Below are positions 33,801 to 40,521 of a stretch of DNA of 64,000 nt, one piece after another (positions within the stretch are counted from its first letter, which is position 1; each line of letters opens with the position of its first letter). A program made the position numbers and the translations under genes. Source of the stretch: Lepraria neglecta (taxonomy: Eukaryota; Ascomycota; Lecanoromycetes; Lecanorales; Stereocaulaceae); NCBI GenBank assembly GCA_033220425.1, contig CM065646.1, positions 5,587,501-5,651,500 on the forward strand, read 5' to 3'. Below the pieces are notes generated by a model that was not told the origin of the DNA, ran no database searches, and saw only the letters and a program-made list of their open reading frames with translations.

Positions 33801-34988
33801 CAAGTGCCACATCCACCCGACGGGGTTCTCGTACAAGAATTTGGACAATGACCACTCTAGTTCCGATTACTTACGGACCAAGAACTACGATCGCTCTACA
33901 CAGATCAGATGGCTGTATGCGACAGTACTGCTCGGAACTTTCTATGTCTGTGTCAACGTCATCTGAGGATGAGTGACTTGATGGACTACCTACATTCACG
34001 ACATCCCTCTGCGTCCGATCTATGACACATCTTGGGACCAAACCGCTCGATGGATCTCGCAAGAGTGGCGTGATTTGGCTAAGAAGATATTGATAGTGTT
34101 ATCGAAAGTCGTTGACGGCCTGACACTTCCACGAAAACGCACGCCACAAAAATCGGAACGAGGAAGAAGTGGCGGGCTACGACTCAAAATGCAAGAGATG
34201 CTTCATATCACTCATTCGAGAAGAAAAGTCATATCACGCTAGGAGAATCCGAATGACTAATGTACGAAAACCAGTGTTGCTCCATCCATCACCCGACAGA
34301 ATGACTTAGAAGCTTACGCCTCACACCTTTTACCACCGCCACCTTCACTTATCGTCCGAGGAGGACAGCCTCCCATTTCCCGAGGTGACAAAACAAGCAC
34401 CACCGCACGCAGCGCCACCACGCAGTCCAAATCTTCCATTCGGAAAGTCTTTGTCATTAGCAGCATACCCTTCACGACCAAAGTTTGGCGGAAGCCCACC
34501 CGATACAAAGTCCAAGATCAGGCCGCGGCACCAGTGGCGCTGCTGATATGATGGTATCGGACTCACCATAACAGGTCAACATGCACTCGCATGACATGCC
34601 CCGCAACGACCCAGCAGTGCATCAGCACCTCAAAGCTGCACACCCCTGAAAACAACCTGTACTTGGGCCCATCCCGGTCGCGCGGCATTAGAAGGATCGC
34701 CAGGCACTACGACGCAATGTCAATGTTCCCACACAGCACCATGATCTAAACACCATTGCTAGCTTTGGCTGCGCGGGTTACGCCTTCCTCAAGTAATGGA
34801 TTAGGCAAACGAGCCATGGCTTGTAAGCTAAATAGAAGTAGATGGCTATGGAACCCAAACTACAACAGTCGGTGCAGGAGGGACACAGCGTGGGGCTTGG
34901 AGGCATCAGTGTCCTAAGCGATGATACCTTGGGCAGATGGTTGGTGTCTGACGGTGGTCAGTGCGCGCAAAAGTACCAAGCGGACAAG
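30846..34988. other. Gene-poor stretch before the transposon nest
   Basis: About 4.1 kb with no gene I can support. The longest frame (31977-32522, plus strand, 181 codons) starts without good context and resembles nothing known to me. Around 33780-34242 there are short coding-like pieces in different frames, one with a hydrophobic helix ('LYATVLLGTFYVCVNV', 33905-33965) and one open for 80 codons (34003-34242, 'ARWISQEWRDLAKKIL'); they could be exons of a small membrane protein or the remains of one, but I could not join them with convincing splice sites. The rest looks like degraded DNA. Confidence 0.4.
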
Positions 34989-34993
34989 GAAGT

Positions 34994-35028
34994 TGTTGGA
35001 AATCGCTTAGTCAGCACTGTCTCCGTTA
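34994..35028 (+). repeat. 5' LTR of the outer Copia element, left piece
   Basis: First part of the 5' LTR, interrupted at its TA by the Fot1-like transposon. It continues at 37967-38039. Comparison with the 3' LTR shows the cut point exactly. Confidence 0.85.
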
Positions 35029-35074
35029 ACGTAATCTACCCCCTAGTTGGCCACACCCCCTAGTTGGCCAGTGC
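35029..35074 (+). repeat. Left terminal inverted repeat of the Fot1-like element
   Basis: 46 bp, exact reverse complement of 37919-37964, with an internal tandem 15-mer. Confidence 0.92.
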
Positions 35075-35270
35075 TCTACCCTGAAATGCAACTAACGTAT
35101 GAAATATCAACAAATTTCCATAGAATTAAGCTATTTACAACTAGAAATCAAGCTATACGTGTCGGACATACCCTGGCATTATGCTCCAGCGAGCTATATA
35201 TACTACATCTTGGTGGCGCGCGGCCAGAAGCTTACGCAGCAACTCCGCTCAAAACAGCTTTATCAGCTAC

Positions 35271-35462
35271 TGTCGCTATGGTGTAAGCGTTGCAATGTAT
35301 CAATGAGATCTATGAATGTGAACAGCCTAAGGAGCCAGAATCTATGGAATGAGGCTCCTAATATACATGATGGAGTGTCAAACAGTAGAAGACGCTAGAA
35401 TGTTGACAAAGAAATGGTGATAAAGGAAAATGGCAAAGGAAAATGGCAAATAGCATACAACA
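35271..35462 (-). repeat. LTR (3' side on the minus strand) of the inner short element
   Basis: 192 bp, same sequence as 36165-36356, preceded by target copy GCTAC. Confidence 0.88.
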
Positions 35463-36164
35463 CACCCCCCAGCTTGAGCGCTGATGCGATCAGGCTGTAA
35501 AAATCACACAATGAGGGTTGAAATGTCGGCCATGTTGAGGAGTTTGATGAAGTTTTGGTGCTTTTGAATTGGTAAAGCTTTGGTGAGGCCATCTGCTGGC
35601 ATATCGGCCGTTGGAATCCATGAGGCTGTGACCCGTTTTTCCTGGATTTCCTGCCTAAGCCAGCAACTATGTACGTCTATATGCCGCAGACGCGTTGAAA
35701 GTGTCGCTGGCTATGTTAAGACGTTTGATGAAAGGTAATGGTAGGACGAACTGCCTAATAAAAAGGATCGTCTATGGCGGTGATGGATTTGGGAGGATGG
35801 GGTTGTTGGAATGGTAGGATTTGGTGGTGGAGTGAGTATTGGCTCAGGATCGAGCGATAGGTCTATGAGATCCCAAATGATGGCTCAGGATCGAGCGATG
35901 GGTCTATAAGATCCCAGATGAAGGCTTCTTTCCTCCTATCTTGCTAGGGCTTGGATAGCCTTGGGGTTCTTGTTGATACGTAGTCACAGGGCTCGGCCGC
36001 TGGATTAGCTACGCGATGTGGTGCTGTGGCTGATGGTGCCTGATTGATGATGTGGTTGAATGGTGGTGAGGCTGAGGCTGTTGATGAAGATGATGCAGCG
36101 GTGGTAAGCTTAATATGGTCTAGCGCAATTAAGCGAACCAGTTGGGGCAAACCGGGCTCATAAC

Positions 36165-36356
36165 TGTCGCTATGGTGTAAGCGTTGCAATGTATCAATGA
36201 GATCTATGAATGTGAACAGCCTAAGGAGCCAGAATCTATGGAATGAGGCTCCTAATATACATGATGGAGTGTCAAACAGTAGAAGACGCTAGAATGTTGA
36301 CAAAGAAATGGTGATAAAGGAAAATGGCAAAGGAAAATGGCAAATAGCATACAACA
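36165..36356 (-). repeat. LTR (5' side on the minus strand) of the inner short element
   Basis: 192 bp, same sequence as 35271-35462, followed by target copy GCTAC. Confidence 0.88.
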
Positions 36357-36625
36357 GCTACTTAAGCTCTTTTAACTCGATCTCGTCCTTCCTCCGCAGT
36401 TAGAACCCCCCTACTAGCTATATATAAGCGAGAAGTTTCTCGCTTGCGCTTTTAACGCGTGCTTATAGCCTATAGATCCTTGATTTCGCTGGCTAAAAGT
36501 GCAGCGTTATGTATAGCCATTTGATACCCTTTGACCACCCGCTTCAGCGCCCGTTCCGTCGGACTTGGGGGGCTTTTCGAATGCCGTTTTAGTCATCCCT
36601 TGATTGTAGTATATTCCTGAGCCAA

Positions 36626-37880
36626 TTAAGCCACGGTGTAGGGTGTTTTGGGGGTTTGGCGGGCTGCTATAGCCGTCTCCGATGTAGGAGGGGTGGGCGT
36701 CCGTAGCTTGAGCTGGAGACGCGAAAGGACTCGCTCAGGATCAAAAGGCACCAATCCAGCTGCAGCAAATCCGCTGTAGATATTTAATAAGTTCAGGGCT
36801 GCTGCGCGGGCAGGTTTAAAAGCCTCCAAGAAGTCGAGCTTGTCGATATGGTTGCGTCCAAGCTGCATACAGATTTCTACCTGATGTCTATACGCGCGTT
36901 TCAGCGGCGAAAAGCAGCCGACGTCCAATGGCTACAGCAGATGCGACGAATACGGTGGTATATATAAAGTTATAATCGCGTTGTCCAGGCAGAATCGATC
37001 GAACTCGGGGGTCGCGTGGCTTCCATAGCCGTCCAAGATCAGTAGTCGATACCGCCCAACCGCACGGGCCTTTGTATATTCATTGAATACGGTCTGGAGC
37101 CAAATCAGGCCAATCTTGTCAGTGGTCCATCCATTTTTACTAACAGCAATCGTCCACTGCGGTGGCAGGGCCTCATACCACGTAGCCTGATGTATCTTGC
37201 CTGCGAAGATGATCATAGGAGGTAAGGCCCAGCTACTGGCGTTGATAGCTTCCACGGCTGTCACCCATTCTCGATTCCCTGGCTGTGTAACTAATGCTTT
37301 CCCGGCTCTTTATGACCCTGTTACTACTTTGGCAGTGCCTATAACCCCTATTTGGAACCCCGTTTCGTCAAAATTGTAGACGTCTTCGTCCGGGATACCA
37401 TATTTCGCCCGCGTATTCTTCACAAGTCGAAACCAGTCACTTATAGCCTTAGGGTCCTCATATAAGGCCCGTTGGTAGTTATACTTCCGTGTATATTTCG
37501 ATTGAAGCTGCTTATAACGATTAATAAATTTGCGGACCCAATTTTCGCCTATAGTAGATAATATATCGATAGGGGATGCAGCGCGCGCTGAAAGAAGAAT
37601 ATCAGCCATTTTGCGTACAGCAGAGATCCTAGGTAGAAACCCCCGTTCGCCTATAGATAGAACCTATTGAAGAAGGGCTTCTTCTTCCGTAGTGAGGAGC
37701 TTTCGATTTACTATTTGGGATTATTGACGCGTTGGCTGTCCACAGAGACGATTGGTTAAAGTTGAGCGAGGGACGTCGTAGGCGAGGGCTGCGGCGCGTA
37801 TACTTGGAGATGTATTACTATGAATAGCTTCAATGGCTTGAAGAATTCTAGCTTCCTGATCGCTTTTGTGGTTGGGTGGC
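36626..37880 (-). pseudogene. Fot1/pogo transposase, interrupted
   Basis: A DDE transposase with an N-terminal CENP-B-like helix-turn-helix. From the ATG near 37880 it starts 'MPPNHKSDQEARILQAIEAI' with 'SIRAAALAYDVPRSTLTNR', then the second HTH ('EEEALLQ' onward). Catalytic parts are seen: 'YNFDETGFQIG' (first Asp), 'LILDGYGSHATPEF' (second Asp) and 'PLDVGCFSPLK' (third Asp). About four in-frame stops (TAA or TAG) fall where relatives have Gln, Arg or Trp; each can be reached from those codons by C-to-T on one strand or the other, some needing two steps. The pattern suits repeat-induced point mutation. No intron is needed. The element cannot make its own transposase, though the TIRs are perfect and could be mobilised from elsewhere. 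Confidence 0.85.
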
Positions 37881-37918
37881 ATTTTGGTGTTTTGTTGAAA
37901 GTCGCGTTTTCGTGGGAG

Positions 37919-37964
37919 GCACTGGCCAACTAGGGGGTGTGGCCAACTAGGGGGTAGATTACGT
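37919..37964 (-). repeat. Right terminal inverted repeat of the Fot1-like element
   Basis: 46 bp, exact reverse complement of 35029-35074; followed by TA and the rest of the split LTR. Confidence 0.92.
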
Positions 37965-40402
37965 TAAAGTCTCTGCATGCAAATAGCTTCTTCTTCAATC
38001 AACTCAATGAACAACACCTTCTGCCCTATAATTTCATCAGATTATGAGTCCGGCAAGCTGAGTGATTGCTTATTGGTTGAATTGATTCCGGAAAGAGGTC
38101 CGTAACCCCTTATAGTGATTGCAGACAAAAAATAATGCAAACCTCAGAACTCTGTTAAAACCGCGTCATCTTCTACAAAAGACACCGAATACCCTATCCT
38201 CTATTATATCTATTACCTACGAACACGTCAACCCTATATACTTCAGAACCATATGCTATTATGTCCGACAACACATCTTCCGGAGGCTATGGAGTCTGGA
38301 AATTCGACAAGCTTATTGGCACGGACAACTACCACCTATGGGCGAGAAGCATAAAGAGACTGATGAAGTGGGAAGGCTACTGGGAAGTCGTTAACGGCTT
38401 AGAGTTCTATCCAACCCTATAGACTGAGGAGAAAGACGATACTGGGAAGGTTACGAAAGCGGCCCCTACTACAGCAGAGAACACTGAATTTAACGAATTC
38501 ACAAGGAATGGAGTGTTAAGAACCGGAGAGTAGCACAGCTGCTTATTATGTACTGTATGGATAAGCCTGCGTCTATAATCGAAGATATGGAGGATATCTT
38601 CTCTATTTGGTGCATGATTAAAGAAAACTATTAAGACTCAGGCTTTACTGCAAGATATACAGCTTTTTAGAAGCTAATAATAACAACGGTCGGAGACTAC
38701 GGAGGCTTAGTGGACAGCTATATATATGCGATCCGCACTAATGTAAAGGACCTCAAAAATATGAATGCTACCGTCCCTGATTGGATCCTGGTCTTAATAT
38801 TACTTAACAACCTTGATGACAAATATACAGACTTCGTCTACCGAATAGTCCTTACGGCTACTGGAGGACTAGACTTTGAAGAAGTCGTCAAGCCTCTCTA
38901 TGAGGAAGACCTTCTGGCCAAGCGAGAAGTTATATCGATAGCTATGGCTGCTGCCTGTGTAAAGGGCTTAAAAAAGACCGAAATATACGAGGAAGGAGTA
39001 TATAGGCACTGCCCTAAAGGGAAGAAGAAGATGTACCTAAGGAGCAAGGTTTACTGTAGATCCATCCACGAAGACAGTCTGAGTCCCGCCCAGTCAAGAT
39101 TCGCAACCAACTGCCCGATTCTTCCAGCGTCCATATGGCCTTAATAACACTACTAATGTATAAGGTTACCGACCGGATCATTGATTCTAGATGCACCAAT
39201 CATATATATCACGATCGGGAAGACTTCATCAACTACACGCCTCTTGGCAAGGCTATCTATATTGCTGAGGATGTGTCCGAACGCTCTACAGATAACATCG
39301 GCGACAGTACTGATTACGTAGATGATGGGGGTGATGTTGGATTCATCCACTTCTGCCAGACAGTACTGCCGGCGACTCAAATTCGGAAGAAGTTGCAACA
39401 CTAGGGCCACCGGAGCAGACCTCAAATAAGGCTGATGCCCTAGAGGAGTAGGATCTAGTAGAAGTACTTCCTGATAGGCCGGAGACTCACCCAGATCCAA
39501 GTACCGATTCTACTCATCGCTCGCAAGAAGGAGATCTCTCAAAAGCAAGCCCAAAACGAGAGATGGAAGAATCCTAAGGACTGGGTAGAGGGAGTAGTCT
39601 CTACAGCCGATCAAATCATCAAATCAGGAGAACTATACTGCCGCTTAGCCAGTGTAACGGACAGTCTTAGCCTTGCCGTTGGAATTCTTTCTTGATTTGC
39701 TCATAATCTAAATAAGACGCACCTTACTGCAGCTAAGCAGGTCCTCCGATATCTCAAGGGAAAACTGGACCGAGGAATTATCTACGGTGAAGGACAAGGC
39801 TTTATTGGATACACGGATGCTGACTGGGCTGGGTGATAGAACAACGAGAAGATCGACTGGTGGCTACATATTTACCCTTCATGGGGGTGCTGTCAGTTGG
39901 TCCTCCAAGCGTCAACCCACCGTTGCATTATCCTCCTGCGAAGCCGAATATATGGCACAGACGCAGGCTTCTAAGGAAGCTATTTAGATAACTCGACTAC
40001 TTGCAGAGTTAGATCCTGGGCATCAAGCACCGGAGATACCGGTTACTATAAAGGTAGACAATCAGGGAGCAACTGCACTGACTAAGGATCCAAAATTCCA
40101 CACTCGGACCAAGCATACCAATATCCAGTGGCATTTCGTATGTGAGAAGGTTCTCAGCGGTGCAGTGGAATTCAAATATTGCCCTACAGACCAAATGGCT
40201 GCTGACGGACTCACCAAAGCACTGGATAAAGTCAAGTTTAGTAGGTTCGTGAGGCTAGTAGGGATGCCAGAAGATATCAACCCACGGGAACGAAAATTGA
40301 GAGGATGATAGTCCAGAAGGAAGAGTTGCATGGAAAACACCATAGATTTTCTATTTTTAGACTATTTGGCGATAGTGACAGTGGCATGCACTCATGGGGG
40401 TG

Positions 40403-40516
40403 TGTTGGAAATTTGCTTAGTCAGCACTGTCTTCGTTAAAGTCTCTGCATGCAAACAGGTTCTTCTTCTTCTTCAATCAACTCAATGAACAACACCTTCT
40501 GCCCTATAATTCATCA
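40403..40516 (+). repeat. 3' LTR of the outer Copia element
   Basis: 114-bp LTR, TGTTGG...TCATCA, followed by the target copy GAAGT. It includes a longer CTT run than the 5' LTR. Confidence 0.85.
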
Positions 40517-40521
40517 GAAGT

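Follow-up and report, generated by a model that had tools for sequence, protein, structure and literature searches.

Three nested transposons in Lepraria neglecta and a Copia long terminal repeat segment entered three times by Fot-like elements

We analyzed a 64,000-nucleotide stretch of the fungus Lepraria neglecta (assembly GCA_033220425.1, contig CM065646.1, positions 5,587,501 to 5,651,500; hereafter the window) in the context of its genome of 42.0 Mb on 11 contigs. The window contains three mobile elements nested in one another, all with exact coordinates: an outer Copia-type retrotransposon, a Fot1/pogo-type transposon in its 5' long terminal repeat (LTR), and a short LTR element inside the transposon. 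The best explanation, to which we give a probability of about 85%, is three successive insertions, including mobilization in trans and an LTR segment that was hit repeatedly by the Fot-like family. We observed the joints and target copies, empty sites of the two inner joints, stops and deletions shared with relatives at other loci, and three separate Fot-like insertions in one LTR stretch. All three layers probably moved in trans. The nest itself is ordinary for fungi; the landing site of the transposon is unusual.

Structure of the nest

An earlier sequence-only reading of the window had claimed six element ends, three target copies (GAAGT, TA, and GCTAC), the order outer Copia, Fot1-like, short LTR element, and the family names Copia and Fot1/pogo. 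The ends and target copies are all present and exact to the base, the anatomy, order, and names are correct, and the flanks agree with a single target at all three levels. The present analysis adds the minus-strand orientation of the inner element, the defective lineages of the two outer layers and the shortened form of the inner one, two more Fot-like copies in the same LTR stretch, and scar-like 4-bp inserts there. The features of the nest are as follows.

34989–34993, no strand: left target copy GAAGT of the outer Copia-type element (read from the sequence)
34994–40516, plus: whole outer Copia-type element, flanked by the GAAGT copies
34994–35028, plus: outer 5' LTR, part 1, up to the TA target (sequence, LTR alignment)
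35027–35028, no strand: left TA target copy of the Fot1/pogo-type transposon (sequence, genome search for ends)
35029–37964, transposase on minus: Fot1/pogo-type transposon with nine in-frame stops; 1845 bp once the inner insert and one GCTAC are subtracted
35266–35270, no strand: left target copy GCTAC of the inner element (sequence, alignment)
35271–36356, minus: inner short LTR element, 1086 bp, frames interrupted by stops (sequence, alignment)
35271–35462, minus: inner LTR, 3' in its own sense, 192 bp (alignment)
35463–35476, minus: polypurine tract CAAGCTGGGGGGTG adjoining the inner 3' LTR (read from the sequence, labelled by position)
36152–36164, minus: inner primer site GTTATGAGCCCGG, 13/13 complementary to the anticodon half of a tRNA(CAT) at C2:547720-547830
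36165–36356, minus: inner LTR, 5' in its own sense, same as the other LTR (alignment)
36357–36361, no strand: right target copy GCTAC of the inner element (read from the sequence)
36362–37882, minus: transposase remnant with HTH_psq, weak HTH_Tnp_Tc5, and DDE_1 (domain search, stop mapping)
37965–37966, no strand: right TA target copy of the Fot1/pogo-type transposon (read from the sequence)
37967–38039, plus: outer 5' LTR, part 2 (sequence, LTR alignment)
38040–40402, plus: outer Copia-type internal region, 2.36 kb, with a gag remnant and three deletions (comparison of relatives, domain search)
40403–40516, plus: outer 3' LTR, serving at the same time as an empty Fot-like site (sequence, alignment)
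40517–40521, no strand: right target copy GAAGT of the outer element (read from the sequence)

The search for empty sites that had been proposed along with the layout succeeded for the TA and GCTAC joints and gave none for the GAAGT joint. Alignment shows the Fot-like site unoccupied both in the 3' LTR of the outer element itself and in other LTR copies. At the inner joint, the BLAST pieces from its left and right sides meet directly in each of the 14 further Fot-like copies examined (11 near full length and 3 internally deleted), overlapping only in the two bases common to both queries, and no insert is present at GCTAC. The uninterrupted GCTAC was read directly in five copies (C4:614, C7:60, C2:1075, C2:4053, and C6:2997), and the aligned segments of the other six near-full-length copies begin downstream of it. 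The left host flank (34300–34993) matched only itself in the genome search, which yielded no empty outer site; since this flank is unique in the genome, such a site cannot be shown from it.

Fot-like insertions in the Copia LTR

Both flanks were read for 17 Fot-like copies. Three of these, namely the window copy, C4:2862, and C7:1210, are inserted into LTRs of the outer Copia family. Two further copies (2/19; L078 and L079) were read on one flank only and stand outside this count; by eye, neither resembles the LTR. The three insertions have the same orientation, occupy separate loci, and use targets within about six bases. Placed against the unscarred LTR, the target in the window is CTGTCTCCGT[TA]AAG, and at C4:2862 and C7:1210 it is the TA straight after CTGTCTT, or the scar of it. 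At the latter two loci the genome search matched the LTR only, with no Copia interior. C7:1210 is bounded by two ACCTG target copies, C4:2862 by GTGGA and TTGGA.

With the LTR set taken as 40 copies of 113 bp, 0.0018 Fot-like insertions are expected in LTRs, and the probability of three or more is ~1e-9; the LTR numbers are lower bounds, 40 of the 42 candidates having been scored. If 1/20 of the genome were accessible, this probability would become 8e-6, and at 1/50 it would be 1.2e-4. Apart from TA and some A/T, the 17 targets, when tallied, had no strong motif in common. From these sequence comparisons, the LTR site looks like a hotspot of the Fot-like family.

Another Fot-like copy, at C7:60814-62658, adjoins a 20-bp match to the LTR start of the outer Copia family. 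This match is too short to count and may be a fourth case.

The Fot1/pogo-type transposon

The middle element combines a duplicated TA target, terminal inverted repeats (68-nt arms, 87% complementary), and a helix-turn-helix (HTH)/DDE_1 transposase, as in Tc1/mariner transposons of the Fot1/pogo type. Its terminal sequence preceded by TA occurs at 37 ends in the genome (35 exact, 2 with one mismatch), which make up 18 pairs and one single end. Domain searches of four pieces of the transposase gave HTH_psq (E 8.6e-7), DDE_1 (E 2.3e-23 and 3.1e-5), and HTH_Tnp_Tc5 (E 4.3e-4), the last with 20.6 bits under a cut-off of 22.2. The transposase is not intact in the window copy, which carries nine in-frame stops, the last of which may be the natural gene end. 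This copy is a non-autonomous member of its family. In the left host flank (34117–34140), 24 bp resemble an inverted stretch near the right end of the transposon (79%), perhaps as an older remnant or by chance.

The closest relative, C4:3569, is 99.4% identical to the window copy (11 differences at 1824 sites). All nine stops are common to the two, and one of them is restricted to this pair among the 12 aligned copies. The two copies stand at different TA sites with unlike flanks; with so few differences, ancestry shared before a later jump is therefore the simpler account. In the simplest reading, the element would have been broken before its last move and mobilized by the transposase of another copy.

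We also calculated indices of repeat-induced point mutation (RIP), of which the first is TpA/ApT. The values of the first and second index were 1.10 and 1.06 for the window Fot-like copy, 1.01 and 1.09 for the outer interior, and 0.63 and 1.72 for the inner element. The two outer layers pass the first threshold and neither passes the second, which is <1.03 in PMC3562529; the inner element passes neither. Two of the 12 Fot-like copies are strongly RIP-like (1.59/0.47 and 1.62/0.42).

Three Fot-like copies (C1:5895020-5896157, C4:946250-947396, and C5:524728-525865) have one common internal deletion (query positions 215 to 922), so a shortened subfamily has spread. One more copy, at C2:1055572-1064697, is interrupted by ~7.3 kb of other sequence and is probably a second nest. 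Shared stops and shared deletions suggest that decayed copies go on moving in the Lepraria genome, and this would undercut the dating of insertions by their degradation.

Scar-like inserts at the landing site

The landing segment was readable in 39 of the 40 LTR rows (the exception being L114), and 36 of these rows lack a Fot-like element; the rows are not independent, some being both LTRs of one element. The empty LTR at C1:4049601 reads CTGTCTT-TAGTTA-TTGAAG, against CTGTCTT-TA-TTGAAG in its subfamily, and the empty LTR at C2:536112 has TAGTTA at the second TA. In the occupied LTRs at C7:1210 and C4:2862, TAAC or ACTA adjoins the insert. The terminal bases of the Fot-like transposon are AC and GT. 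We searched the genome for the LTR word with TA-R-Y-TA in the next 14 bases; this gave three places, and the central pair was AC or GT in all of them.

We read the 4-bp TA-GT/AC-TA inserts as candidate excision scars of earlier visits. Copies in the LTRs at C7:1210 and C4:2862, and perhaps at two further loci, would then lie exactly beside a TA-AC or TA-GT remnant. A further step is to propose that the stretch of about six bases is a reused landing pad, where the Fot1/pogo transposon returns to the scars that its earlier excisions left behind. We put this forward tentatively and rate it as rather unlikely. If it is true, dispersed retrotransposon LTRs would serve as docking sites through which a cut-and-paste element cycles.

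Alternative explanations

We compared the proposed insertions with several other accounts of the same data. Unrelated repeats misjoined during assembly might mimic a nest, all three layers being multi-copy. The target copies and ends match at each level, and the two LTRs of a pair are near-identical in the outer element and identical in the inner one, a pattern that a misjoin would hardly be expected to yield, and we give this account the lowest credence of all. The three LTR cases could also go back to a single insertion, multiplied together with its LTR through retrotransposition or segmental duplication, in line with their common orientation and nearly common position. This is highly improbable and largely refuted by the distances, flanks, and target positions. 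Identity to the window copy is 95.1% for C4:2862 and 87.1% for C7:1210, and C7:1210 belongs to another clade with C2:4053 and C6:2997; for two copies added to the comparison, C1:1248 and C2:5546, the identities are rough values, as these carried short flanks. Moreover, the TA used in the window is unlike that of the other two, the flanks match over the LTR only, and the C7 LTR has a target copy of its own. The stops, in turn, may have arisen in place by RIP after the insertion, with C4:3569 homogenized via gene conversion. The raised first index and the two strongly RIP-like copies would fit this course of events, which we consider improbable in view of the few differences between two copies at their own TA sites with different flanks; the second index of the window copy also fails to pass the published threshold (PMC3562529).

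The 4-bp inserts call for closer weighing. Instead of scars, they may reflect a target motif preferred by the transposase, or chance indels, an account that is unlikely but far from negligible. TAAC, TAGT, ACTA, or GTTA adjoins 4 of the 17 Fot-like insertions, compared with a chance of 0.0055 for each TA of the window (P = 2e-6), and 2 of 14 when the LTR cases are left out (P = 0.003), these 4-mers having been picked after the sites had been seen. Two of the adjoining copies (C1:5895 and C4:946, beside TAAC/TAGT) lie outside the LTR family and have no empty relative, so the transposase may prefer such motifs. The reversed control pattern gave two matches against three for the pattern itself. 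Scars are favored by the low chance of such a 4-mer per TA, by the finding that the 4 bp at C1:4049 and C7:1210 are insertions relative to the same LTR subfamily, and by the AC or GT in 3/3 rows although the pattern allowed four pairs. Several further points weigh against our preferred reading, the successive insertions with repeated hits and scars. The LTR copies are related rather than independent, and their numbers are lower bounds. At C2:536 the scar comes with 8 additional bases and the LTR start is damaged, at C4:2862 a single T is present besides the 4 bp, and at C2:3404 the segment has only a small change, perhaps a partial scar. The shared stops could likewise result from gene conversion between the window copy and C4:3569. 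All evidence comes from one genome assembly of one strain.

Proposed history and LTR divergence

The nest would have formed in three steps. A Copia-type element of an internally deleted lineage would have integrated at GAAGT. A stop-riddled Fot1/pogo-type transposon, moved in trans by the transposase of another copy, would then have entered a TA in the short Copia LTR segment that this family struck more than once. Finally, a short LTR element derived from a 5-kb Copia family would have inserted at GCTAC in the Fot-like element, by retrotransposition in trans.

The LTR pairs agree with the sequence-only reading in that the inner LTRs are identical (0 differences in 192 bp) and the outer ones differ at several sites (3 substitutions at 106 aligned sites and 3 indels). 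Its description of the nest as a useful clock was overstated: the outer and inner substitutions differ with a Fisher P of 0.045 (computed with 107 and 192 sites). With three substitutions against none the clock is weak, and the order of events is therefore taken from the nesting alone. An inflation of the outer LTR divergence by RIP was considered and rejected. Judged against most other LTR copies, the three changes look like T to C (L091 shares one C), not the C to T of RIP, which is thus not their likely cause.

Comparison with known systems

Tc1/mariner elements of the Fot1/pogo type in ascomycetes, for example in Sclerotinia, have an HTH_psq, HTH_Tnp_Tc5, and DDE transposase with premature stops in copies, according to PMC4188875. 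The Lepraria family shares with them the inverted ends, the TA target, the domain set, and the premature stops. It differs in that 3/17 copies lie in one LTR stretch of one Copia family, where scar-like inserts are found. In a literature search limited to open-access papers, with most subscription papers outside it, neither an LTR landing site of a Fot-like element nor the re-entry of scars by one turned up.

For Mycosphaerella graminicola, PMC4522978 describes 78 nested transposon clusters of 7.5 to 63 kb with no obvious insertion preference. Common features are elements within elements and, in the cluster table of that source, verified target copies of the base elements. The Lepraria cluster differs from what is described there in being small (5.5 kb), in mixing class I and class II elements, and in showing an insertion preference. 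Repeated LTR hits, together with candidate empty and re-entered scars, provide a natural experiment on site choice and reuse by a fungal Tc1/mariner element.

The outer and inner LTR elements

The outer element has the TG...CA LTRs and the 5-bp target copy of a Copia-type element. Of three pieces searched for domains, the gag piece matched Retrotran_gag_2 with 26.7 bits, just under the cut-off of 27, and the two 3' pieces had no domain match; a 5.2-kb relative has RVT_2 (E 4.1e-48). Relative to the 5.2-kb relatives, the interior has deletions near 39024–39031, 39262–39268, and 39655–39669. At two places, two 5.2-kb relatives have ~1.1 kb extra each, and the window element runs collinear with C6:3916 across both; in the first two matched stretches, the window element and C6:3916 are 87.5–88.6% identical. 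In C6:3916 an additional part is missing, and this element is flanked by a separate target copy, AAAAG. C2:3551 shares one of the two deletions and holds ~0.24 kb at the other place. The third deletion (~0.29 kb) was found in none of the four relatives compared and may therefore be the window copy's own. Because two deletions are common to the window element and to C6:3916 with its separate target copy, the outer element belongs to a shortened lineage that still moved.

A primer site complementary to the anticodon half of Met-tRNA is a Copia-type feature. In the outer family, the site differs from the tRNA half by 2 mismatches in the window, matches it over the full 13 bases in L081, and has one mismatch each in L090 and L098. 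The tRNA at C2:547720-547830 (L075, anticodon CAT) matched the Rfam tRNA model with E 6e-9, and ARAGORN called no tRNA in L075–L077. Its anticodon half matches the primer sites of the inner element and of the outer-family relative L081. Elongator Met-tRNA was rejected as the primer of the outer element, the pattern-matched loci L076 and L077 having no tRNA match.

The inner element is placed on the minus strand because its primer site adjoins the right-hand LTR; the polypurine tract adjoins the left-hand one. Its 0.7-kb interior has three full copies in the genome including that of the window; one of the three, C5:4457, has only 58 bp of LTR at one side. Longer relatives match the inner element over ~237 bp at one end and ~90 bp at the other, as well as in a 39-bp repeat, and the 5-kb relative at C1:4043 carries RVT_2 (E 2.5e-33). 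Having its LTR and ends in common with this Copia family, the inner element has the features of a Copia-derived non-autonomous element and, by sequence comparison, is a short derivative of the 5-kb family. The interior of terminal-repeat retrotransposons in miniature (TRIMs) is very short, about 100–300 bp. The 702-bp interior of the inner element exceeds this size, and its ends are common with the 5-kb Copia family; it is therefore better called a deletion derivative than a TRIM. TRIMs and large retrotransposon derivatives (LARDs) are named as kinds of non-autonomous short LTR elements in PMC3562529. The inner element resembles them in its LTRs, primer site, polypurine tract, and broken frames, and was presumably moved by a longer relative. 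Within the inner element, two tandem 41-bp copies that are 93% alike lie at 35840–35921, and it is this repeat to which the longer relatives carry the 39-bp match.

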